A stretch of 64,000 nucleotides of DNA from Globomyces pollinis-pini (Eukaryota > Chytridiomycota > Chytridiomycetes > Rhizophydiales > Globomycetaceae). Below are positions 1,804-63,315 of this stretch, piece after piece; the first letter of the stretch is position 1; each line of letters opens with the position of its first letter. The position numbers and the translations under genes were made by a program. The notes under the pieces were generated by a model. That model worked only from the letters and a program-made list of their open reading frames with translations. It made no database searches and was not told the DNA's origin. Location: contig MU621114.1 of assembly GCA_025399215.1 (NCBI GenBank), forward strand, positions 46,999 to 110,998, in the 5' to 3' direction.

Positions 1804-4214
1804 ATGATGCAAACTGGTACAATTACAATTTTAAACCCTCTAGATTCAGTTATTACCGAAGAGCAACGTATTCAAGTCAAATCGTTAAAGAAAGAATTAA
1901 AAGAATGGGAATATCAATTTGTTGAAGATAACGGTAGAAAACCAAATAAACAGGATATAGCATCAGTTCCTAACATTGGTATTTTATCAAACTAATCGAA
2001 AAAGCGATGCGATACAAGAGTTATGCAAGGTTAAAAGCTCTAATTGAAAAGATTGATGATGGGGACAATATTCCAAAACGAAAATCCAAAATCAAGAACT
2101 TACCAGAGGTTGTTGTCATTCCAGAAAAAACCAACATTAACTTGACGGAATCTTCGACAAGTATTACAACTTCAGATGCCAGAGACTCTCGAAATAGACC
2201 TTCATCGACCAATCTTTCAGCTAATTTGACACAGGAGACTCTAACGGGATCAAGCATTGAATTGTCGAATCTTAATTTAAACAAATCTATTGAATCATCT
2301 ACAAATAATTTACACGATAATTCAACTTCTATTGCACGTAATAAGATTCGAAAGTCGAATATTGCGGCTGGTCCTGTTGCAACATCTGATATTGGTTCCA
2401 GCTACGACAGATTTGCGAGAAGGGCATTACAACAACAGCAACAACTTCAAAAACAAGGTACGAACGTTGATATATATTCATTTTTAATATAGAAGCTACC
2501 CAACAGAACAACATATTCATCAAATCGGCTATTAATAACACAAAGATAGACAAGATAGAGCAGCCAGACTTGCAGAAACCAGAGTATGGGGTCAACACCG
2601 AACTAAAAGGGTTTCAACAACGGAAGGAACAATTACAAGGAATGTCAGTCACACCAAAATTGCAATCAGATATTTCAACAAAATCAGACTTAATACTCCC
2701 AAACAGCAAAATAATGGAAGACGCTATTGAAACGGTTAAACAGCCCGTCATTAGTACAATGGCGAAACCCAAAATCATTCATGTTGGAAAACATTATACC
2801 GATAGTTTGGATAACATACAACAGTCGGAAATCGAAGCTTTTAGCGAGACTGTGGAGCCATTGAAACCATCTTCCCCTCCCAATCTGAGTTTTCAAAATA
2901 GTGCAGAATGTTTAGAAATAGTTAATGATATTCTTAAAGAACATCCAAAACTTTTAGAGAAACATATTAGAGCAGAAAGAACTAAATTGGACGCAGAAAA
3001 TAAAAAACCACCCAAGAATGAGATACTTGAGGAGCAAGTTAATACAAGGCGTTCTAGTAAAGCAATCTCAACGATAGAAGAAAAAGGAAACTCAGAATCT
3101 CTTGGAAGCGGTGGGTCTGTAGTTTCAAAGGAGGATTCAAAGACAGATTCCTCTCAAAGTTTGTTTGAAAACAAACATATTGAACAAAGAAAAGAAGATG
3201 TAGAAGTTTCTATGGATTCTTTGATCAATGCTAAAAGTCCTGAAGTTTCAGTCCAACCTACTGAAGAAGAGATAACAGCAACTATAGCATCAACTAAGAA
3301 TGGCGTAGAACAACAGGAAAATGCTCTAGGATTACCATTGAACGCTTTAGTGAAAAATCTACCATCGTTAATGGTCACAAATATCAACAGGCAAGACTTG
3401 AAAATTAATTTTATAGTCGTATGGAGAAACACGGTGTACTTCGTTGTAAACTGTATCGAAAAAAGAACTTGTTGGGTCAAACAAACCCAACATATATTTT
3501 ACACAATGAAGCCGATAATTCATTTCTACTTGCAGCAAAGAAAATGCTATTATCAAAATCGATCAATTATATTATCTCGGATAGCCCTGATGATTTTTCA
3601 AAGGATTCGATTCACTACGTAGGAAAACTCAAGTTATACATATTTAATGCTGACCTTTAGGGCAAATTTCAAACGAACGAGCTTTATATTATCAGACACA
3701 AGAAGCTCTACATCCCAAAAAACTCAACGTGAATTGGCAATAATCAATTATGTAAGATTAAGAAATTAATTTTGTTAGAGTAAAAATGTATTGCCTAGGG
3801 AACTACAAGTAGCTATTTCAGCAATGACCATACCAGAAGATACAGTAAATTACATTTATGATTTAATTGAAAAGGCTTTAGGACATTCTACTGATATTAC
3901 TGAAGATTTTAGAATTCGCAATGAAAATACATTGTTATTTCTGAAAAATAAACCTCCAAGATGGAATGAGGCTACTCAATCACACTGCCTCAATTTTGGT
4001 GGTAGAGTTACACAACCAAGTATCAAGAATATGCAATTGATCTCTGATATAACTGGAGGTAAGAATTTTGTTTCTCATGTTTGACGTTTATAATGTATTA
4101 CAATTTGGTCGATGTGGATCCGATTTCTTTTCTTTAGATGTACGATATCCGATGACGGTATTGGAAGCATTTGGAATTGCTTTGACTACTTTTGATGCAT
4201 ATGATAGCGCTTAG
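1804..4214 (+). CDS. tubby-like protein with Sld2-like N-terminal module
   Basis: About 743 residues. Residues near 20-70 (1850-2040) carry [20 protein letters not shown] followed by an [10 protein letters not shown] segment, resembling the helical module of Sld2/RecQL4 N-termini. A long Ser/Glu-rich disordered region follows. The C-terminal half is a tubby domain: [27 protein letters not shown], the [20 protein letters not shown] motif and the closing [19 protein letters not shown]. Tubby proteins bind phosphoinositides and in animals help ciliary trafficking. Introns: 1979-2004, 2458-2492, 3391-3416 (GC-AG), 3633-3660 and 3752-3778. At 4059-4095 a frame change lies between two conserved tubby segments with no AG acceptor available (see findings). 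Start: first in-frame ATG, 1804. Confidence 0.85.
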
Positions 4215-4263
4215 AGAAAATAAAGTTTAGTAATAGTGCAAGTTCTTTATTTTTACTGTCCAA

Positions 4264-5100
4264 CTAAACATTTGGAACTACCGAATCTGTCATTTCATAG
4301 GAAATATCGTTGTTGCTATCTCGATCATTTTCTAGAAAGTCATAGAACTTTGTAGAGTGAGTTCTGCTTAAAGATACAATTTTAGCTATATCATCATAAG
4401 ATTCAGGAGTTCGATCAATGGAGGATGATTGATTATCTTGAATTGCCACAGTCGTTTCCGCTTCTTCCTGCCCATCGCCCGAGCCAGTTACACATACATC
4501 AGTGGATAAAATGGAAGGAAAATGTAGATCTTCAAACTTTACTTTTTCATCTAAAATGTTAGTCAAAATGATCCTAACCGATTTCCATATGATTTTCAGG
4601 TGCTTGCCATTCAAAGGACATATTTTTAGTATTGTAAGTCAAGATTTCGTTCAAACAGACACCTTCAAACTTTGTTGGTATTTCATTTTCTTTTGTCCAC
4701 TGTTCAAAGTATTGGATACATTCATCTGAAGTATTATGAGCGATGGATTTTTGTGGTTTTGGTTGCTGTTGCTTTTGCTTTCGTATTTCATCTAATTATG
4801 ATTAAGTATTAAAATGTACATGAATTCCTTAGTTTATGTAAGCGATGACAAGTTATATCATCAAATGATTGAGATCGATTATGTTTAGTTTTTAAAATGA
4901 CCGAGAAACCACCCTTTGCAAATCTACGTTTTCTAATGATTCTCCCTTCAAATGGATGAGACCTTTCTATTAGATTGAATAAATCACTGTGTTCTAATTC
5001 CTTTAATAAAATCAGAATTACGTATTAAAGCTGCTTTCAAAATATTCTGATTTTGTCTCCATTGAAAAAGTCAAGAGACAAAAAATGACTTCAGAGACAT
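4264..5100 (-). CDS. hypothetical protein (239 aa, four introns)
   Basis: Reconstructed from ATG 5098-5100 to TAG 4264-4266 with introns 4994-5021, 4792-4819 and 4551-4578 (28 nt each) plus a less certain first intron 5057-5089 that would use a GAG acceptor. The product starts MSLKQNQNILKAALIQHSDL, has a basic patch (RIIRKRRFAKGG), a short Gln/Lys/Pro run (KQKQQQPKPQK), a WTKENEIPTKFEG segment and an acidic Ser-rich tail. I recognise no domain. It is divergent from the OTU-like gene, with 112 bases between the two start codons, so they may share a promoter. The alternating frames joined by introns of the local type argue that it is real. Confidence 0.55.
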
Positions 5101-16221: not shown

Positions 16222-17596
<1,375 letters not shown>

Positions 17597-23486: not shown

Positions 23487-25858
23487 ATGGAAGGGAATCC
23501 AGCAGTGGCCTACAGTTTCCCTGGAGTTTTACACTTCTTACAAGTAGAATGGAGGAGGTTTGAACGTGAAAGAAATGAATGGGAAATTGAACGATCTGAG
23601 CTAAAGGTTTGTTAAAAAACTAATTTTATGATCAGGTTAGTAGAAACGGGATTTTGATTTTAGACTCGGGTTGCTCTTCTTGAAGGAGAACGAAAAGCTA
23701 TTGACAATATGAAAACTGATTTGGTGAGAAGAGTTAAAATGTTGGAATATGCTTTACGACAAGAACGGTAATCGTTTTTCATTTATCTTCAAGATCAAAA
23801 GTTAGTAAGGATGCTACTGTACCAGAGACTGTTGAAAAGGATTTAAATGAAATCATTAAACCACCTGGTGGTCTGATGAATTATTCAAAAGGTTTTGGTC
23901 ACTCTAGGAGTAGAGAGATATTGAAGAGGTTTTATACACATCATCTCATATTATTAGCTATTTAAAGGAAGCAGATACTTTGCTGGCCTCGGCAACTGTA
24001 CATAGAAAGTCAGATAGAACCAATTTGGATGAATCCTTTATCCAGTCGGTGGACCAAAATTCAGCAATCCCAACAGAAACACTAATTAAAATGCCAATTA
24101 CTTTAGATTCAGGATCAGCTCAAGGTGTATCAAAACCACGTACAAGTATACCAGGTCAAGGGCTTAAGCCCGGTCAAATTTTGATTAGAAAACCAGACTC
24201 GGAGAATTCTAAATATTCCTTCAAACAACCTGAAGGAATGCAAGATGCTCTTAATTTACCTAGCCCTTCTAGTCAGGTTCCTTATTTTTAAGATTAACCT
24301 TTTACAAGACCGAAATTGGAAATTTGCCAACAAATTTTGGAAATTTACCTGGCAACTTTGAATCGATGAATTCATCCACAATTAAAGCTGATAAATCAAA
24401 GAAAGCAAAGAAAATTTCATCGAAAACAAAATTATCTACCAAAAAGGAAAAACCACCACACCCCAGCATGTCCACTTCATTCACTGGTATTGATTGATTT
24501 CATATGCTCATACAACAGAATCTTTTCAAGATCCATTAATGTCACCGGTTGAGATTACACCTTCAGAGCTTATTGAATCACCATTGTTTCGTCAATCAAA
24601 TAAGATTCCCAATCGAGACACTGATGCAGCCAATTCTATCATTACTGGAGTAAAAAATATTTTTTAATATTAGTCACCTAAAGCTTCAAGCTATGGGCAA
24701 TTCAATTCACTTCGAAGGTTCTAATTTACTCTAATGATTAGTCATCTAGATGCTGTCCGATCTTTATCATTCCATCCCAAAACTTTCGGGCTATTATCGG
24801 GCTCTGAAGACCATACAGTGAAATTATGGAAACTAAAAACGGATCAATTAGAGTACAAGAATAATAGTCTAATTATAGAACTAATCATGATCCGATTTTT
24901 ACTTTTAGAGGCCATTCAGGCCCAGTTACATCAGTGGAATTCTCTGCATTAGAAGATATTTGTTTTTCAGGAAGTGCAGATACTTCAATTAGGGTATGGA
25001 GGCTACCAGCGTTTGACATCTCACCTTATTCTAATCATGGTTTTTTCATTTAGTACTTACTTTAGTATCCGCACAATGTATACACACATTGGTTGGCCAT
25101 TCAGACATTGTCTGGGACATTGCTGCACATAGTACTTCTCCAAGATTATTGTCAGCATCAGCTGATGGGACAGTTAAACTGTGGAATGTCAGTAATGAAT
25201 CCTCAGCATTAGTATCCACTTTGTGGTATAATGGGCTTGGAAAAAGTAATACTAATGATAACCAAATACCAACGTCCATGGCTTGGGTCTCAGAAAAGAC
25301 CATGGCCGCATCGTATCGAAATAGTGCAATTCAAATGTTTGACCTCACTGTTGGAAAAATGGTGTTAAACTTTGAGAGTTACAACAATTTTGGTAATTCA
25401 AAAAACAATTGATGTTATAGATAATATGATTAATCCTCAAATCAATAAAATTAGAGCACATCCAACACTGCCGTTGATTATTACAGCGGATGAAGATGGG
25501 GATATCCGGTATTTTGATCACAACACAGGTATTAACAAAGTATGTCTGAATTGTATAGGGAAATGCGTTGGTCAATTTAAGGCACATCATGGTAGTGGTG
25601 TTAGCTCAGTTAGAATAAGCGATGATGGAAAGATTTTAGCATCAGGAGGTATTTTAACACATATTTATGTTAGGACACAACGGAACTGTAAAATTATGGG
25701 ATATTGAATCGCATGCATGTCTTCAAGAGTTCAAACCCAAGCCATCGATTGGAATATCATATGAGGGAGTCTGGGACGTTGCGATATCTAAGAATCACGA
25801 AATAATTGCCTCTGGAACAAGTAGCTCACTCATCAATATATACAAAAAGAATGTTTAA
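23487..25858 (+). CDS. striatin-family WD40 protein
   Basis: About 670 residues. The N-terminus FPGVLHFLQVEWRRFERERN is the striatin caveolin-binding/coiled-coil block, followed by ERKAIDNMKTDLVRRVKMLE and SREILKSYLKEAD. A Lys/Ser-rich linker leads to a C-terminal WD40 propeller (SHLDAVRSLSFHP, DPIFTFRGHSGPVTSVEF, LVGHSDIVWDIAAH, GHNGTVKLWDI). Striatins are the scaffold of STRIPAK (PP2A-kinase) complexes controlling fusion, polarity and signalling. Introns: 23607-23663 (two joined units), 23768-23793, 23929-23957, 24277-24308, 24487-24518, 24650-24673 (24), 24718-24741 (24), 24853-24878, 25040-25065, 25393-25420, 25529-25558 (stop-free) and 25649-25673. Confidence 0.92.
23607..23663 (+). other. 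two end-to-end intron units in striatin
   Basis: Units 23607-23635 (29 nt) and 23636-23663 (28 nt), junction CAG|GTTAGT. Removing both joins RSELK to TRVALLEGE in frame. Confidence 0.7.
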
Positions 25859-30027: not shown

Positions 30028-30603
30028 CTACCATTTGATTTCAGGATTTAATTTGAACTTTTCATACTCTTCTTTTACGAAATAACTGATTTCCGTTTCA
30101 TTCTCTACCAATTATGACCATAGAGAATATACCTAAACCTGAAGCAGCTAGAGTTTGGTTATCATCCAAGAAACCTATATCATCAATGTTGATGATAAGA
30201 TTTTGACTCTAATTGATTGAATATAAATCTATGCTACCTTGTTTCCATGAGGTTGAAAATATAATTTAAGTGTATCTATTGAGCGAATGGTTATTTCCAG
30301 AATCATTACCTAATTAAAGTAAATATGGTTATCATTTACCTAAGACAAATTAAACTATCAATTTGAAATTACCTATAACAGTATTAGATGATGAATAGTA
30401 TACCAAATGGAGTATTTAAATAAGGTTTAAATCCAGAAGTAATTGGTAATTCTAGGTACCATTAAATCAAAAAGTTTACTGGATTGAATCAAAACTTTTA
30501 ATTCCCCAACAGTCATTTCTGGATCAATTTCTTTCAGTACCAAGCTTTTGGTTGTTCGGAATTCAAATGATTTGATGACTCTGACAGTGATTGTTAGTGT
30601 CAT
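30028..30603 (-). CDS. UPF0538 (C2orf76-like) protein
   Basis: About 120 residues. The N-terminus TLTITVRVIKSFEFRTTKSL and the C-terminus ASGLENETEISYFVKEEYEK then NPEIKW match the C2orf76/UPF0538 family, small ubiquitin-like-fold proteins of unknown role. The middle is FKPYLNTPFDTLKLYFQPHG and NLIINIDDIGFLDDNQTLAA. Introns: 30452-30479, 30276-30403 (four joined units, 128 nt in all), 30210-30238 and 30105-30132. The length agrees with the animal family. Start ATG 30601-30603. Confidence 0.85.
30276..30403 (-). other. four end-to-end intron units without exons between
   Basis: Coding-strand order: 30373-30403 (31 nt), 30340-30372 (33), 30310-30339 (30) and 30276-30309 (34). Each begins GTA and ends TAG, and each internal junction reads TAG|GTAA. 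Removing all 128 nt joins TPF to DTLKLYF with the expected Asp made from the split codon. Confidence 0.75.
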
Positions 30604-34797: not shown

Positions 34798-36336
34798 ATG
34801 AACAGATTCAGGAGTAACCCCCCACAAATTATGTCAGGGAAAAATCTGGAAGAAAACAATGTGGAAGTCGAAGATGGAATGAAGCGTGGTTTGAAAAACA
34901 GACATATTCAGATGATTGCCATTGGTGGTACTATTGGTACAGGTCTATTTATTGGAAGTGGTGAAGTATTGAAGGCTGTAGGTCCAATGGGGATCTTGAT
35001 ATCTTATGCTATTGCGGGAATGATTGTGTTTTGTGTTATCATGTCGTTGGGTGAGATGGCCACTCTCATTCCTGTATCTGGTTCCTTCAACGAGTATGCT
35101 GCGCGTTTTCATAGTCCTGCTCTTGGATTCATGTCTTCCTGGGCATACTGGTTTAATTGGGCAATGACACTACCAATTGAATTACAAGCTGCAGGATCTT
35201 TCTTGGGTTTCTGGTTTCCAAGTGTACCTCCTGTAGTATTTTATCTCGGCATTCTTTTCTTGCTCATGTCAATCAACTTATTCACTGTTAAAGGGTTTGG
35301 TGAAGTGGAATATTGGCTAAGTATTTTGAAGATCAAAGCTATCTTTGTATTTTTCTTTGCTGGTATCTTTGTGATCTTTCGCGACCAAATTGGGTTTGTA
35401 AACTATTCAAAAGCTGGAGGTGCAATGGCAGGAACAGATTTTTGGGGTATAGTGAACAAACTTCCTGCTGCAGTCTTTGCTTTTGGAGGAACTGAATTGG
35501 TGGGAATCACCGCTGGTGAAGCGGCTAACCCAAGAAAGAGTGTACCTGCTGCAATTCGAGGAACGTTTTGGAGAATAACGATCTTTTATTTTCTTACTGT
35601 ATTTGTAATGGGTATTGTACTTCCATCGGACTATGCCGAAAGTTTACATGTGGAGGGTGACCATGCCAGTTCTATTCTATCATCGCCATTTGTAGCAGTT
35701 ATGCAAGTTGCAAAGATTCCGTATGCTGCGGACTATATCAACTTTATTGCATTCATAGCAGTGTTCTCTGCTGGAAGCTCATCTCTGTATGCCACTTCCC
35801 GTACAATGATATCCACCTGTCAAGCTGGATATGGTCCAGAATTCCTTACTCGTACCAGCAGTGGAGGGGTACCAGTTGTACAAGTACTATTCGCGTCTGC
35901 ATTTGGCCTTATTAGTATTTTAACTACCGTTATTGGTGCTGAAGTGATCTTCACTTGGTTGATTAACTTGGTTGGTAATTTGATTGGAGTTTCTTGGGTA
36001 TTGATATCCATCGCACATATCTACTTTCGAAAGGCGTATCTTGCACAAGGGAATAGATTAGAAGATTTACCTTACCGATCCCCTATTGGTGTCATGGGAG
36101 ATTATTTCTCACTGTTTTTCAATTGTTTTGTATTGCTGTTTGCTGGAATAACTGGGTACATCAAAGGGGATCCATTTGAATTGGTTGGGTTTATCAGCTC
36201 CTACGTGTACTTGTTGCTACTGATTGTACTTTATGTAATTGGGGGAGTTTTGTATGGGTTTGGCCGTGTACCTTCCGAACAAGTTGACTTGAAGACTGGC
36301 CATGTATCGAAATACGATCATATGTACAAGGAATAA
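34798..36336 (+). CDS. amino-acid permease, YAT family, copy 1
   Basis: 512 residues, intronless. Plasma-membrane proton/amino-acid symporter of the fungal APC/YAT family (Gap1/Can1-like). N-terminal hydrophilic tail, then KNRHIQMIAIGGTIGTGLFI at TM1, SLGEMATLIPVSGSFNEYAA, FAFGGTELVGITAGEAANPR, then the GSSSLYATSRT loop; about 12 hydrophobic segments. Substrate range cannot be read off. Paralogues at 48357 (+) and 61795 (-) are each similar throughout. The MSLG|EMA position that holds an intron in copy 2 is uninterrupted here. Confidence 0.95.
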   Translation: MNRFRSNPPQIMSGKNLEENNVEVEDGMKRGLKNRHIQMIAIGGTIGTGLFIGSGEVLKAVGPMGILISYAIAGMIVFCVIMSLGEMATLIPVSGSFNEYAARFHSPALGFMSSWAYWFNWAMTLPIELQAAGSFLGFWFPSVPPVVFYLGILFLLMSINLFTVKGFGEVEYWLSILKIKAIFVFFFAGIFVIFRDQIGFVNYSKAGGAMAGTDFWGIVNKLPAAVFAFGGTELVGITAGEAANPRKSVPAAIRGTFWRITIFYFLTVFVMGIVLPSDYAESLHVEGDHASSILSSPFVAVMQVAKIPYAADYINFIAFIAVFSAGSSSLYATSRTMISTCQAGYGPEFLTRTSSGGVPVVQVLFASAFGLISILTTVIGAEVIFTWLINLVGNLIGVSWVLISIAHIYFRKAYLAQGNRLEDLPYRSPIGVMGDYFSLFFNCFVLLFAGITGYIKGDPFELVGFISSYVYLLLLIVLYVIGGVLYGFGRVPSEQVDLKTGHVSKYDHMYKE

Positions 36337-36709: not shown

Positions 36710-39700
36710 GGAAGCAATTCTTGATTTCAACTCAGAATTAAACATCACTTTGTTTGATCAAATTGTATCCACTTTCTTTAGAGGGGGGCCGGAACAACCT
36801 CAAGCAAAGTTGATCATCGAGCAGTTTCAAGAACACCCAAAAGCATGGGAACGAGCTGATCAAATTTTGGAACGATCTTCTTTACTAGAGTCAAAGGTAT
36901 CGTATTCATTATTGATTCTTGATAGTTTATCGCTTTACAAATCATGGAAAAGTTAATTAAGACAATGTGGAAAGTTTTGGATCAAACGAATAGGTTTGCA
37001 ACATTTGTATATTGAACTGAATCCATTCAGGCAAGGGATTAAAAACTTTATTATTGCCTTTATCATTAAAACTGCATCTGATGAAGTTTCTTTGGAAAGA
37101 AATCGAACACTATTGGGAAAATTGAATATAGTTCTCGTTCAAGTATTTGATTATGCTTTTCGCTAACTAGTTTCTAGATTTTAAAACAAGATTGGCCAAC
37201 AAATTGGCCAACATTCATTCCAGAAATTGTTGTGTCTAGTAAATCAAATTTATCCCTTTGTGAAAACAACATGGTCATTCTAAAGCTATTAAGGTATCTT
37301 TTATTGGTTTCTTAAAATATTAGGTGAACAATTAAATAATCTTACATATCTAGTGAGGAGATTTTTGATTTTTCGGCTGAACAGATGACACAAGCAAAGA
37401 CTAAAGCATTAAAGAATTCATTATGTGGAGAATTCTCTGAAATCTTTACTCTTTGTCACGAAATATTGGAACAAGCCGAGAAACCTTCCCTGATTAATGC
37501 AACCCTTCACACCCTATTAAGGTTTCTCAATTGGATTCCATTGGGATATATTTTTGAAACCAATCTGGTTACTTGCCTGTGTGAAAGAGTAAGATTTTTT
37601 CATTCTATAACAATTTGTATTCATCGTCTTTATTTGAAGGGACAGATTCTAATTTTTTTTAGTTTTTCCAAGTTCCACAATTTAGAAACGTTGTGTTAAA
37701 ATGTTTGACTGAGATTGGTTCTCTCCAAGTTGGTCCAGAGTATAATGAAAAGTTTGTTATCTTCTATAAGATTGTTTTAGAAGGAATTGTCAAAATTATG
37801 CCTATCACAACCAGTAAACATCATTATCAGCTCATCATTTAGACTTACCATCCATATATGAGGACAGTACTGATGATGACCAAAACTTCATACAAAATTT
37901 GGCTTTGTTCTTTTCTTCATTTTTCACTCTTCATTTAAAGGTAATTCTATAACACTCTTTTTTAGCTTTCACAAATTGAAAATCTTTTCATTACCCTTTA
38001 TTCATTTTTTAGCCATTAGAAGCTGCTGCAACAGCAGATCCTATGATGAGCGAGGGATTGGTTTTGGGACACAGATACTTGGTCAAAATTTCAGAGGTTC
38101 GAGATCGCGAAATTTTCAAAATCGCTCTTGAATATTGGACTAAATTGGTGTCAGAGTTGTACGATGATGTATCAAGCAACCCAAGGCTGGATAATCCAAT
38201 ACTAAATTTAAACAGCTTCAATGCAAGGACTTCCGGAAATCGCCGAGTGGCTGTTTATAGCGATATCCTTTCAAACCTTCGTGTTGTTATGATCGAAGCC
38301 ATGGTCAGACCAGAAGAAGTATTGATTGTGGAAAATGACGAAGGAGAAATTGTTCGTGAAACGTTAAAGGAAACAGACACCATTCTTTTGTATAAAAGTA
38401 TGCGTGAAGTATTGGTCTACTTGACCCATTTGGACGCTGAAAACACAGAACAGATTATGTCTGTGAAGTTGGAGAAGCAGGTTTAGCTATTTCTATTTAA
38501 CAAATCCAGATGAATGGTAGTGAATGGTCTTGGGACAATCTCAACAAACTTTGTTGGGCTGTTGGGTCAATTTCAGGTGCTCTATCTGAAGAAGCAGAAA
38601 AACGATTTTTAGTTATGGTTATTAAAGATCTTCTTAGCTTGTGTGAAATGAAACGTGGAAAAGACAACAAGGCTGTAGTTGCATCCAATATTATGTATGT
38701 GGTTGGGCAATATCCAAGATTTTTAAAAGCCCACTGGAAGTTCATGAAAACTGTTGTGAACAAATTATTCGAATTTATGCATGAATTGCATGAAGGTATA
38801 ATTCAAATAGTGTGATTTACATATACAGGTGTCCAGGATATGGCTTGTGATACATTTATTAAGATTTCACAAAAATGTCGTAGACATTTTGTAATCCAAC
38901 AACCACATGAACATATACCTTATATTGAAGAAATTCTTTCTACCATTGAGTCCATTACATCTGATCTACAACCACAACAAGTCCATACATTTTATGAAGC
39001 TGTCGGTTGTATGATTGCCGCTCAACCAAACAAAACAATCCAAGAACGATTAATCACCAAGTTAATGGAATTGCCAAACAAATCTGTAATTGTTTATTAC
39101 TTATTTTAGTGGGATTCATTAGTCCTTCAAGCGGGTCAAAATCAAGATCTTTTGAATAGCCCTGATAATGTGAAAGTATTGGCCAATATATTGAAGACGA
39201 ATGTTGCTGCATGTTCATCCATTGGTGCACCTTTTGTGAGTCAAATCGGAAGAATATTTTTGGATTTATTAGGTCTTTATAAAGTCGTTGGTGATTTGAT
39301 TTCCCAAGCAGTTGTACAACAAGGTTTGTCTTTGTATGACTTAATTTTTTTAAGGTTTAATCGCAACTAAAACTCCAAGGGTTAGAGGTTTGCGAACAAT
39401 CAAGAAAGAAGTGCTCAAGTTGATGGATACATATATACAAAAAGCTGATGATTTACCTGCAGTTAATAACACAATGATTCCAACACTTTTAATGGCGGTG
39501 TTGGTTGACTATAGTGCGAACGTTGAACCTGCAAAAGAAGCGGAAGTATTAAATGTGATGGCAAACATTGTAACTCGACTTGGAGTAACTGTTACATTTA
39601 TTAAATATTAGCCATTAATGTCCGATAAAGTAGTGGGAATACTCGATGCAGTTTTTGAGTGTACTTTGAACATGATTAACAAAAACTTTGAAGAATATCC

Positions 39701-48356: not shown

Positions 48357-50006
48357 ATGGCTCACAATTTGGAAGAAGATGAAATTGGGATATTGAATAA
48401 CGCAGAAGGAATCGCAGGCAAGAATATGGTGAGGGCAGAATCATCGATATTGAGTGTTGAAAACGTTGGGACACATAGAAAGTTAAAGGCAAGACATATT
48501 CAAATGATTGCGATTGGAGGAACCATTGGAACAGGCCTCTTTCTTGGTAGTGGAAAAACTTTGGCTTTGATTGGTCCATTAGGAACGTTATTAACGTTTT
48601 TACTGGCTGGAATTATAGTGTTCTGTGTGATTATGTCCCTTGGTAAATATTTAAATCACAATAAATTAACAATTGTAGGTGAGATGGCTACCATGATTCC
48701 TGTCACTGGATCGTTTAACGAATACGTAGCGAGATTTCATAGCCCTGCGTTAGGATTCACATCTGCTTGGGCATATTGGTTCAATTGGGCAATGACGTTA
48801 CCCATTGAAATACAAGCTTGTGGAGATTTCTTGGGATTTTGGTTCCCAAAAGTACCCCCAATTCAATTTTATATGATACTCTTATTGGTTTTACTCATGA
48901 TTAATTTGTTTACTGTGTCTGGATTCGGAGAAGTTGAATATTGGCTTAGCTTGATGAAAATTGTTGCTATTTTGATATTTATTATTGCTGGATTGTATCT
49001 TGTAATGGACCAAAACTTGGGATTCAAAAACTATGATGCCAATGGTGGCCCATTTGCCGGTCAAGGATTTTGGGGCATTGTAGCTGCTCTTCCTAATGCA
49101 GTCTTTGCTTTTGGTGGGACTGAATTAGTTGGTATTACTGCAGGGGAAGCTGCTAATCCCAGAAAGAGTGTGCCAGCAGCAATTAAGGGTACTTTTTGGA
49201 GAATTATGATCTTTTATATACTCAGCATCTTTACCATGGGATTGGCGCTTCCTTCAAACTATGCTTCAGGTATGGGTGACTCAAATAAAGATGTTCTGGG
49301 GTCACCATTTGTTGCAGTGATGGAAATTGCGAATATTCCTGGTGCAGCACATTTCATCAATTTCATTGCGTTTGTGGCAGTTTTCTCAGCTGGAAATTCT
49401 TCTTTATATGCGTCATCTCGAACAATGATGTCTTTATGTCAAAAAGGGTATGGTCCAAGCATTTTGTCTGGAATAAACAAATCGGGAGTTCCAGTTCTTC
49501 AGCTTTTCATATCAGCTTCTTTTGGATTAATCACAATTTTGACTACAGTAGTTGGAGTTGGAGTCATTTTTCAATGGTTAATGAGCCTAGTTGGAAATCT
49601 CATTGGCGTATCTTGGCTATTCATTTCCATCGCACATATATATTTCCGCAAAGCATATGCTGCGCAAGGATATAAATTAGAAAATCTGCCTTATCAATCT
49701 CCTATAGGGACAGTCGGAGACTATGTAGCACTGTTTTTCAATGGCTTTGTCCTTGTTTTTGCTGGAATAACCCCATACGTAATGGGTAAACCGTTTGATT
49801 TGCTGGAATGTGCTTCAAATTATATGTATTTATTCCCTTTGATTGTGCTTTACAGTGTTGGTGTGTACAAATATGGATATCATATTGTGCCATCAGAGAA
49901 AGTCGATTTACAAACTGGTCATGTTGGACTGCACGACATGGAGTATGAAATGGAGGCTATAGAATCGACCTCTATGTTTGGTAAAGTGGTGGATTGGATA
50001 TCTTGA
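48357..50006 (+). CDS. amino-acid permease, YAT family, copy 2
   Basis: 537 residues after removing a 36-nt intron at 48643-48678. Same family landmarks as copy 1: ARHIQMIAIGGTIGTGLFLG, SLGEMATMIPVTGSFNEYVA, FAFGGTELVGITAGEAANPR and GNSSLYASSRTMMS, about 12 hydrophobic segments. The intron is a multiple of three, has no stop, and would insert KYLNHNKLTIVG-like residues in the middle of the invariant MSLGEMA motif if left in; copies 1 and 3 have no intron there, so it was gained here or lost twice. Probably plasma membrane. Confidence 0.95.
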   Translation: MAHNLEEDEIGILNNAEGIAGKNMVRAESSILSVENVGTHRKLKARHIQMIAIGGTIGTGLFLGSGKTLALIGPLGTLLTFLLAGIIVFCVIMSLGKYLNHNKLTIVGEMATMIPVTGSFNEYVARFHSPALGFTSAWAYWFNWAMTLPIEIQACGDFLGFWFPKVPPIQFYMILLLVLLMINLFTVSGFGEVEYWLSLMKIVAILIFIIAGLYLVMDQNLGFKNYDANGGPFAGQGFWGIVAALPNAVFAFGGTELVGITAGEAANPRKSVPAAIKGTFWRIMIFYILSIFTMGLALPSNYASGMGDSNKDVLGSPFVAVMEIANIPGAAHFINFIAFVAVFSAGNSSLYASSRTMMSLCQKGYGPSILSGINKSGVPVLQLFISASFGLITILTTVVGVGVIFQWLMSLVGNLIGVSWLFISIAHIYFRKAYAAQGYKLENLPYQSPIGTVGDYVALFFNGFVLVFAGITPYVMGKPFDLLECASNYMYLFPLIVLYSVGVYKYGYHIVPSEKVDLQTGHVGLHDMEYEMEAIESTSMFGKVVDWIS

Positions 50007-61794: not shown

Positions 61795-63315
61795 TCAAGC
61801 GACCATATCAATGAATTTACCCCATGTAGTAGTTGGTCCTTTATCATTTTCGAATTCCTTGTCGTGACTATCAACATGACCAGTGACCAGATCCACTTCC
61901 ATAGGAGATTTTACACTTGCTCCAAACATTGAAATCCCACAAATGTAGAGAGCGACAACTGGTAACAGATATATGTAATTTGCAACGAATCCGGTAGTAC
62001 CACCCAAGATAAATGGGGCTCCAAGGAAATAGTCAGTAATACCAGCGAAAATGAGGACAAATAATAGCAATGCAATAACAATATAGTCTGCAATTACACC
62101 AACTGGTGATACATAAGGAAGATCTTCTACTTTTTTCCCTTGTGCAATGTACGCTCTTCTGAAATATACGTGACAAATGCAGATGAATAACCATGCGACA
62201 CCAATTAGGTTTCCTAGCAGATTCACCATCCAAATAAAGATCTCTTCCGCACCAAATACAACAGTAAGTAGAGTCAATAAACCAAAGGAAGCTGTAATTA
62301 ACAATTGCAAGACTGGGACTCCGTTTGCACTAGTTTTGGATAGCATCTTAGGACCATATCCTTTTTTGCACAAGGCCATCATGGTTCGGGAAGAAGCGTA
62401 TAATGCAGAGTTTCCAGCAGAAAAAACAGCGACGAATGAAATAAAGTTGATGAAATGATCTGCTCCTGGAATGCTAGCCTTGACCATAACAGCAATAAAT
62501 GGGGATATTGAAACCTTTGCACCCTTTTCTACATTATCCAGATAGTTGTATGGGATAGCTAAACCCATTAAAAAGATTGTCAACACGTAGAATAGACTAA
62601 CTCGTATAAAAGTACCCTTGATTGCCTGTGGGATGCTTTTCCGTGGATTTGCTGCTTCACCAGCAGTAATGCCAACGAGCTCTGTACCACCAAAAGCGAA
62701 AACGGCACTTGGCAACTTTGATAAGAGTTTCCAAAAACCTGCTCCAGCAAACACGCCATCTCTAACATTGTAATTAGCGAAACCAAGATTTTGTCCAAAA
62801 ATCACAAACAGTGCCACGAAAATGAAGATAACGATTGCAAACACTTTGATGAACGAGAGCCAATATTCGACTTCTCCAAATCCAGCCACGGTAAACAGAT
62901 TTGTTGCCAAAAGAATGATCAGAATACCCATATAGAACCAAACTGGATGTACATTTGGTAACCAATAGTTCAAGAACACACCACACGCTTGAAGTTCAAC
63001 GGGAAAAACAACAGCCCAAATAAACCAATACACCCAGGCAGAAGTAAATCCAAAAGCTTCACTATGAAAACGAGCAGCATATTCATTAAATGAACCAGTC
63101 ACAGGAATCATCGTGGCCATCTCCCCAAGCGACATACACACGCAAAATACCATCATACCGGCAATCACAAAATTGAGTAGAGTTCCCAAAGGCCCAACAG
63201 CACCAAGCACCAGTCCACTCCCAATAAAAAGCCCTGTTCCAATGGTACCACCGATGGCAATCATCTGGATATGCCTGCTTTGCAATTGACGTTTAGTTCC
63301 TTCTTCTGAATGCAT
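61795..63315 (-). CDS. amino-acid permease, YAT family, copy 3
   Basis: 506 residues, intronless. SRHIQMIAIGGTIGTGLFIG, SLGEMATMIPVTGSFNEYAA, FAFGGTELVGITAGEAANPR and GNSALYASSRTMMA, with about 12 hydrophobic segments and a short N-terminal tail (MHSEEGTKRQLQ). Same family as the copies at 34798 and 48357; sequence around GLVLGAVGPLGTLLNFVIAG and the C-terminus (VDSHDKEFENDKGPTTTWGK) differ. It converges on the PPR-like gene, stops about 90 bases apart. Confidence 0.95.
   Translation of the reverse strand: MHSEEGTKRQLQSRHIQMIAIGGTIGTGLFIGSGLVLGAVGPLGTLLNFVIAGMMVFCVCMSLGEMATMIPVTGSFNEYAARFHSEAFGFTSAWVYWFIWAVVFPVELQACGVFLNYWLPNVHPVWFYMGILIILLATNLFTVAGFGEVEYWLSFIKVFAIVIFIFVALFVIFGQNLGFANYNVRDGVFAGAGFWKLLSKLPSAVFAFGGTELVGITAGEAANPRKSIPQAIKGTFIRVSLFYVLTIFLMGLAIPYNYLDNVEKGAKVSISPFIAVMVKASIPGADHFINFISFVAVFSAGNSALYASSRTMMALCKKGYGPKMLSKTSANGVPVLQLLITASFGLLTLLTVVFGAEEIFIWMVNLLGNLIGVAWLFICICHVYFRRAYIAQGKKVEDLPYVSPVGVIADYIVIALLLFVLIFAGITDYFLGAPFILGGTTGFVANYIYLLPVVALYICGISMFGASVKSPMEVDLVTGHVDSHDKEFENDKGPTTTWGKFIDMVA

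Follow-up and report, generated by a model that had tools for sequence, protein, structure and literature searches.

Head-to-tail arrays of minimal introns in the chytrid fungus Globomyces pollinis-pini, putatively removed one unit at a time

Introduction

Exons of zero length are known from the ratchet points of Drosophila, where an acceptor and a donor are juxtaposed at AG|GT and leave a zero-nucleotide exon between them (PMC8906543). These ratchet points are described from long introns of tens of kb (PMC8906543, PMC8605326) and are reported to need a cryptic exon with its own donor (PMC8605326). The stwintrons of ascomycetes are described as nested: one intron splits a splice element of another, so that the inner one has to be excised before the outer (PMC5639578, PMC8469720). 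Finally, it has been described that introns can be gained by tandem duplication (PMC4974935).

Here we describe arrays of short introns that abut with nothing between them, starting from one gene in the window, by which we mean the whole 64-kb stretch of DNA that was analysed. Its source, Globomyces pollinis-pini, is an aquatic fungus, a chytrid of the order Rhizophydiales. Compared with Drosophila recursive splicing, the arrays are alike in the AG|GT juxtaposition; if they are removed in stages, each stage would regenerate a donor and the mRNA would be expected to carry the outer junction only. They are unlike it in that the segments are of 23-43 nt, up to ten of them occur, and the next intron begins at once. 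Note that each array unit has a GT directly after it, and formally could act as a cryptic exon, as in Drosophila. With the stwintrons, the arrays share a fungal host, more than one canonical intron and a presumed consecutive splicing under intron definition. However, in the array from which we started, that of the UPF0538 gene, all four units are complete, each with its own GT and AG ends, and lie side by side, not nested, and, unlike stwintron pairs, arrays reach up to ten units per site. Introner elements are introns that multiply in a genome; the arrays are alike in intron multiplication, and unlike them in that the one unit we searched for, from locus L037, has no copies outside its array. 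In the published tandem duplication, the duplicated stretch provides the splice sites of one new intron beside an exon (PMC4974935); a copy in our locus L033 also seems to include an exon end, whereas here whole introns are seemingly copied head to tail, repeatedly. A search covering part of the literature returned no report of abutting short-intron arrays among the matches listed.

Results and discussion

Four abutting introns in the UPF0538 gene

The UPF0538 gene (PF10209) extends from start to stop codon at 30028..30603 on the minus strand and has four intron sites. Three of them hold solitary introns, of 28 nt (30452..30479), 29 nt (30209..30237) and 28 nt (30105..30132), all on the minus strand. 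At the remaining site, an earlier note on this DNA had claimed four consecutive abutting introns with zero-length exons, and inspection upheld this. Thus, the 128-nt block from 30403 to 30276 (minus strand) is made of four adjoining GTA...TAG units, of 31 nt (30373..30403, GTATAC...TATAG), 33 nt (30340..30372, GTAATT...CTTAG), 30 nt (30310..30339, GTAAAT...ATTAG) and 34 nt (30276..30309, GTAATG...AATAG), with TAG|GTAA at all three junctions. The units have the form of ordinary introns of this genome (GTA...TAG, 24-36 nt, YTRAY near the 3' end), with YTRAY in three of the four; its A lies 5, 11 and 12 nt from the end, none at the usual 7-10. No pair of units (0/6) was more similar than 99% of the null of unrelated introns. 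TAGGTAA occurs four times on the plus and 12 times on the minus strand of the window; from this rate, our own arithmetic gives an expectation of about 1e-4 triples with a spacing of 23-45 nt arising by chance in its whole length. Rfam and tRNA scans of the same 64 kb were empty.

It had also been claimed that the outer splice restores the conserved sequence of the family, and the protein comparisons bore this out. A protein search returned BC833DRAFT_579361 (P0001) of G. pollinis-pini, to which the outer-spliced product is identical in 120/120 residues. The search found 81 other proteins, and in the 11 fungal homologues among them that were aligned with the product, TPF|DTLK was gapless throughout; in the homologue P0080, a deletion starts three residues past the junction. 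Since the junction is gapless in the homologues, the whole block is absent from the protein and no internal piece of it is retained. A hidden 15-nt microexon between TPF and DTLK, suspected from the human sequence, was ruled out by this fungal alignment, which has no gap there.

Our reading, drawn from sequence, is that the block represents four complete minimal introns placed head to tail, that it belongs to a genome-wide class of arrays with 2-10 units and that its units are removed singly. We give this reading a probability of about 0.8.

Arrays are a general feature of the genome

The UPF0538 array had been taken for a singular case, a view that had to be abandoned. When the whole genome (18.5 Mb) was scanned for runs of splice-junction motifs, in counts of repeats that are lower bounds, three TAGGT in succession with gaps of 18-40 were present at 225 places and with gaps of 200-222 at 10. 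The 100 triple matches listed represent about 65 separate loci, a few of which resemble coding repeats and not introns. Pairs of TAGGTA gave 395 places at gaps of 17-39 vs 61 at gaps of 200-222. The reversed pattern, a different motif used as a control, had absolute counts that matched or exceeded those of the splice motif (near and far, respectively, 322 and 227 for the triple, 407 and 329 for the pair). The ratios of near to far were 22 (triple) and 6.5 (pair) for the splice motif and 1.4 and 1.2 for the control; general clustering thus accounts for a factor of 1.2-1.4, and not for one of 6.5-22.

A home-made Viterbi gene finder was then applied to 20 regions surrounding array hits, 195 kb in total, and to the 64-kb window. 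With a flat prior of 18-320 nt on intron length, 285 of 412 introns were still of 20-39 nt. The final settings, with a prior favouring 20-45 nt and abutting introns permitted, called 108 genes with 844 introns. Internal exons of zero length numbered 136 in these calls, and each length from 1 to 60 had between none and six. Leaving out blocks with an intron >45 nt reduced the 47 arrays to 41, with 171 units, beside 599 solitary introns. The 41 called arrays, found in 259 kb, have 2-10 units, 27 of them three or more; they contain 130 AG|GT acceptor-donor junctions, and all segments are of 23-43 nt, with up to ten in succession. Note that 23 of the arrays come from the middle of the selected loci and that most arrays were thus found where they were sought. 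In unselected sequence, the window has four arrays and 148 solitary introns and the outer parts of the loci 14 and 313, which places arrays at 18/479 intron sites (3.8%) by gene-finder calls that are mostly unchecked. Arrays are a feature of the G. pollinis-pini genome, not a rarity.

In an AT-rich genome with weak splice signals, annotated by a home-made gene finder, chance tiling or an artefact of assembly has to be considered. We regard it as hardly credible, given the near and far counts above and the fact that proteins are rebuilt exactly. Moreover, with the flat prior and abutting introns forbidden, 16/124 blocks >45 nt still tiled, vs about 0.6 expected from shuffles, and shuffled blocks >110 nt practically never tiled; the UPF0538 array was not recovered as such under these settings. 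A misassembled repeat, for its part, would not be expected to yield diverged units.

Five of the called arrays lie together in locus L033, where three genes carry them over a distance of about 3 kb (2658-2774, 2883-2964 and 4086-4370 on the plus strand; 1194-1307 and 1518-1571 on the minus strand). Given this grouping, arrays may cluster in the genome.

Array units resemble solitary introns

The units were compared with 267 solitary introns with coding flanks, a comparison to be read knowing that the arrays were found by the same signals. Each array unit resembles an ordinary intron in its ends, its length and the placement of its branch point. The median length is 28 nt for array units and 29 nt for solitary introns (KS p 0.68), and unit length modulo 3 had no clear bias. 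YTRAY is present in 100/171 array units and 172/267 solitary introns (53 and 86 after shuffling), with its A at 7-10 nt from the end in 69/100 and 111/172, respectively. Median donor scores are 4.5 for solitary introns, 4.5 for the first unit of an array and 5.5 for internal units; the last value is in part trivially high, as the exon side of an internal donor is the AG that ends the unit before it. An A at donor +3 is found in 73% of first and 78% of internal array units vs 92% of solitary introns, and several arrays use GTT donors. This unusual donor recurs within single arrays, in 5/5 units at 4790-4928 (plus strand) of locus L045 and in 6/10 at 4780-5068 (minus strand) of L039, where its shared use may reflect common descent.

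The exon before an array ends in AG in 10/16 unselected arrays vs 66/267 solitary introns (p 0.002). A GT opening the next exon also appeared to be enriched (15/38 arrays vs 38/267). However, it was found in only 2/16 arrays outside the selection, and we take it as ascertainment.

Protein tests of the outer splice

The spliced products of arrays were then aligned to solved structures, for six proteins with seven array junctions, and 6/7 junctions were gapless. This was the case for PHYHD1 (ten units, 285 nt, vs 2opw), an E2 enzyme (five units, 155 nt, vs 5knl), DCN1 (seven units, 204 nt, vs 8or2; elsewhere, this model has a 317-nt intron that is doubtful), a SAMHD1-like HD protein (five units, 142 nt, vs 9mr6), CHMP3 (ten units, 289 nt, vs 3frt) and the CRM1/exportin-1 gene of the window, whose two-unit array (30 and 30 nt) is at 37294..37353 on the plus strand (vs 4fgv). 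The seventh, a called pair in the same HD gene (L047 3614-3671), was rejected: the alignment has a seven-residue gap there, and the pair is probably a miscall. With Pfam, in ten of 33 array proteins, nine of 13 array junctions fell inside the best-matching stretch, one of these nine at its very edge.

Of the three deposited models that we checked, only that of UPF0538 carries the outer splice. In the PHYHD1 model P0083 (299 aa), 19 residues are inserted at the array (L033 4086-4370, plus strand), where by our reading units 4 and 8 of the ten are retained as exons. The CHMP3 model P0204 (158 aa) starts inside the ten-unit array (L039 4780-5068, minus strand), with loss of the N-terminal part. 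These disagreements could in principle reflect real retention, and they would favour the view that some units are exons or alternative exons and that a block conceals coding sequence; every unit does sit between an AG and a GT and could be mistaken for an exon. We consider this very improbable. The deposited UPF0538 protein has none of the block and is gapless vs the 11 homologues, the PHYHD1 insert is missing from all five homologues aligned with P0083, and all three frames are closed by stops in 26/27 arrays with at least three units. We read the faults of P0083 and P0204 instead as a predictor's answer to a structure that it may not draw. Arrays break gene annotation, as we read it, in two of the three deposited models checked, which are wrong at the array.

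Our own gene finder merged CHMP3 with the neighbouring Cwf15/Cwc15 gene, recognised by a Pfam match, on the minus strand of L039; these are probably two adjacent genes. Cwf15/Cwc15 is, we assume, a spliceosome-associated protein.

Longer introns and the way arrays are removed

The earlier note had argued from length against a single 128-nt intron in UPF0538, which was only partly right. Untiled introns of that size with coding flanks were called: there are eight of 50-145 nt, seven of them of 71-145 nt, and because of these seven the idea that tiling is imposed by a strict upper limit on length was rejected. The introns of 71-145 nt appear as a second class, distinguished from the short introns and their weak donors by a fuller donor (GTATGT, GTAAGT, GTAAGA); examples are L043 3462-3559, L041 7550-7633, L034 3218-3362 and L040 6711-6781, all on the minus strand, and L040 3021-3096 on the plus strand. 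Introns of 40-69 nt are rare (8/844), in calls whose prior favours 20-45 nt.

These longer introns leave room for an array that exits in one step, at UPF0538 as a single 128-nt intron, with the internal TAG|GT as unused leftovers of its origin. The product would be the same, and a single outer intron agrees with the UPF0538 protein as deposited. We hold one-step removal to be unlikely, for two reasons. First, a G at donor +5 is present in 5/8 longer introns, in 8/41 first donors of arrays (p 0.02) and in 47/267 solitary introns (p 0.007), which, with small numbers, suggests that array donors resemble the short-intron class. Second, in most arrays the interiors of the units now differ as much as those of unrelated introns do, whereas the junctions, the unit length and the placement of the branch point are kept. 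That interiors are randomised with the junctions intact argues that the units are spliced one by one, since unused junctions should have vanished. This is our main argument for separate removal, and it is weakened because arrays with lost junctions would escape recognition.

In the unit-by-unit removal that we favour, each unit would be recognised by intron definition and excised on its own, and each TAG|GT junction would be the acceptor of one unit and the donor of the next. The AG of the junction supplies exon-side bases for pairing with U1. Since every junction would serve both ways, any order of removal, or the skipping of a unit, would yield the same mRNA. As two splicing events can hardly occur simultaneously on 28-nt introns, removal is probably sequential. 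The recursive splicing put forward in the earlier note gained partial support, which comes from elsewhere in the genome, where junctions look individually maintained.

It is in long introns of animals that zero-nucleotide recursive splicing is known. Arrays of introns of about 28 nt would show whether intron definition by itself can cope with exons of zero length, what the minimum spacing of two splicing events is and how introns multiply in place.

Unit similarity and the origin of arrays

In most arrays, similarity between units does not go beyond that of unrelated introns: no pair exceeded 99% of the null in 31/41 arrays, or in 17/27 of those with three or more units, and this includes the ten-unit array of L039 (0/45 pairs) and the nine-unit array of L032 (0/36). 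Similar pairs were found in L033 (17/45), L037 (8/15) and, weakly, in L040 (2/21). Without L033 and L037, 10/318 pairs exceed the threshold, with about three expected. Thus, the similar units of L033, L037 and L040 indicate that tandem duplication occurs, and elsewhere there is at most a faint trace of it. In L033, by our reading of the sequence, the copied stretch seems to take in the end of the preceding exon. Our reading is that arrays probably gain their units for the most part when an intron is duplicated in tandem.

It has also been considered that arrays grow by the insertion at AG|GT of intron copies from elsewhere, introner-like or by reverse splicing, and not by tandem duplication. 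This concerns the origin only and fits stepwise removal too. AG|GT junctions would be natural targets, the enrichment of AG before unselected arrays (10/16 vs 66/267) would agree with it, and so would the 31/41 arrays that lack similar neighbours. We nevertheless think growth by insertion improbable. The clearly alike units are alike within one array: a genome search with one L037 unit, allowing up to 3 mismatches, returned three matches, all in its own array. This unit, the only one searched, does not behave like a dispersed element, and the dispersed similar copies that mark introners were not found for it. Moreover, the likeness between units of different arrays is that of solitary introns (median identity 0.52 in both). 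Of the repeated insertion that the earlier note had offered as a second explanation, copying in tandem is supported by L033, L037 and L040, and the single unit searched gave no support to dispersed copies.

Under tandem duplication, the interiors of the units would diverge and the junctions would stay. If two units fused, a weak donor would have to serve an intron of about 57 nt, and the scarcity of introns of that length in this genome is perhaps why junctions persist. Since introns of 40-69 nt are rare, loss of a junction may well be harmful, and arrays could then grow and not fuse. We lean towards the view that this chytrid routinely performs zero-exon recursive splicing by intron definition alone, at about 4% of the intron sites in unselected sequence, in arrays of up to ten minimal introns that were born by tandem duplication and then locked in, since its weak donors could not serve an intron as long as the one left by a lost junction. 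As units can be counted, the birth of introns by duplication becomes testable between strains and species.

Other features of the window

In addition to the arrays of UPF0538 and CRM1/exportin-1, two others were called in the window, by the gene finder only. The first, at 23607..23663 on the plus strand, has two units (29 and 28 nt) and lies in what we take to be a striatin gene. The second, at 17460..17506 on the minus strand, also has two units (24 and 23 nt) or, alternatively, is one 47-nt intron; the gene around it is presumably a CaM-kinase. Finally, the window has three similar long open reading frames within 30 kb, at 34798-36336 and 48357-50006 on the plus strand and at 61795-63315 on the minus strand, which we assume from their appearance to encode amino-acid permeases.
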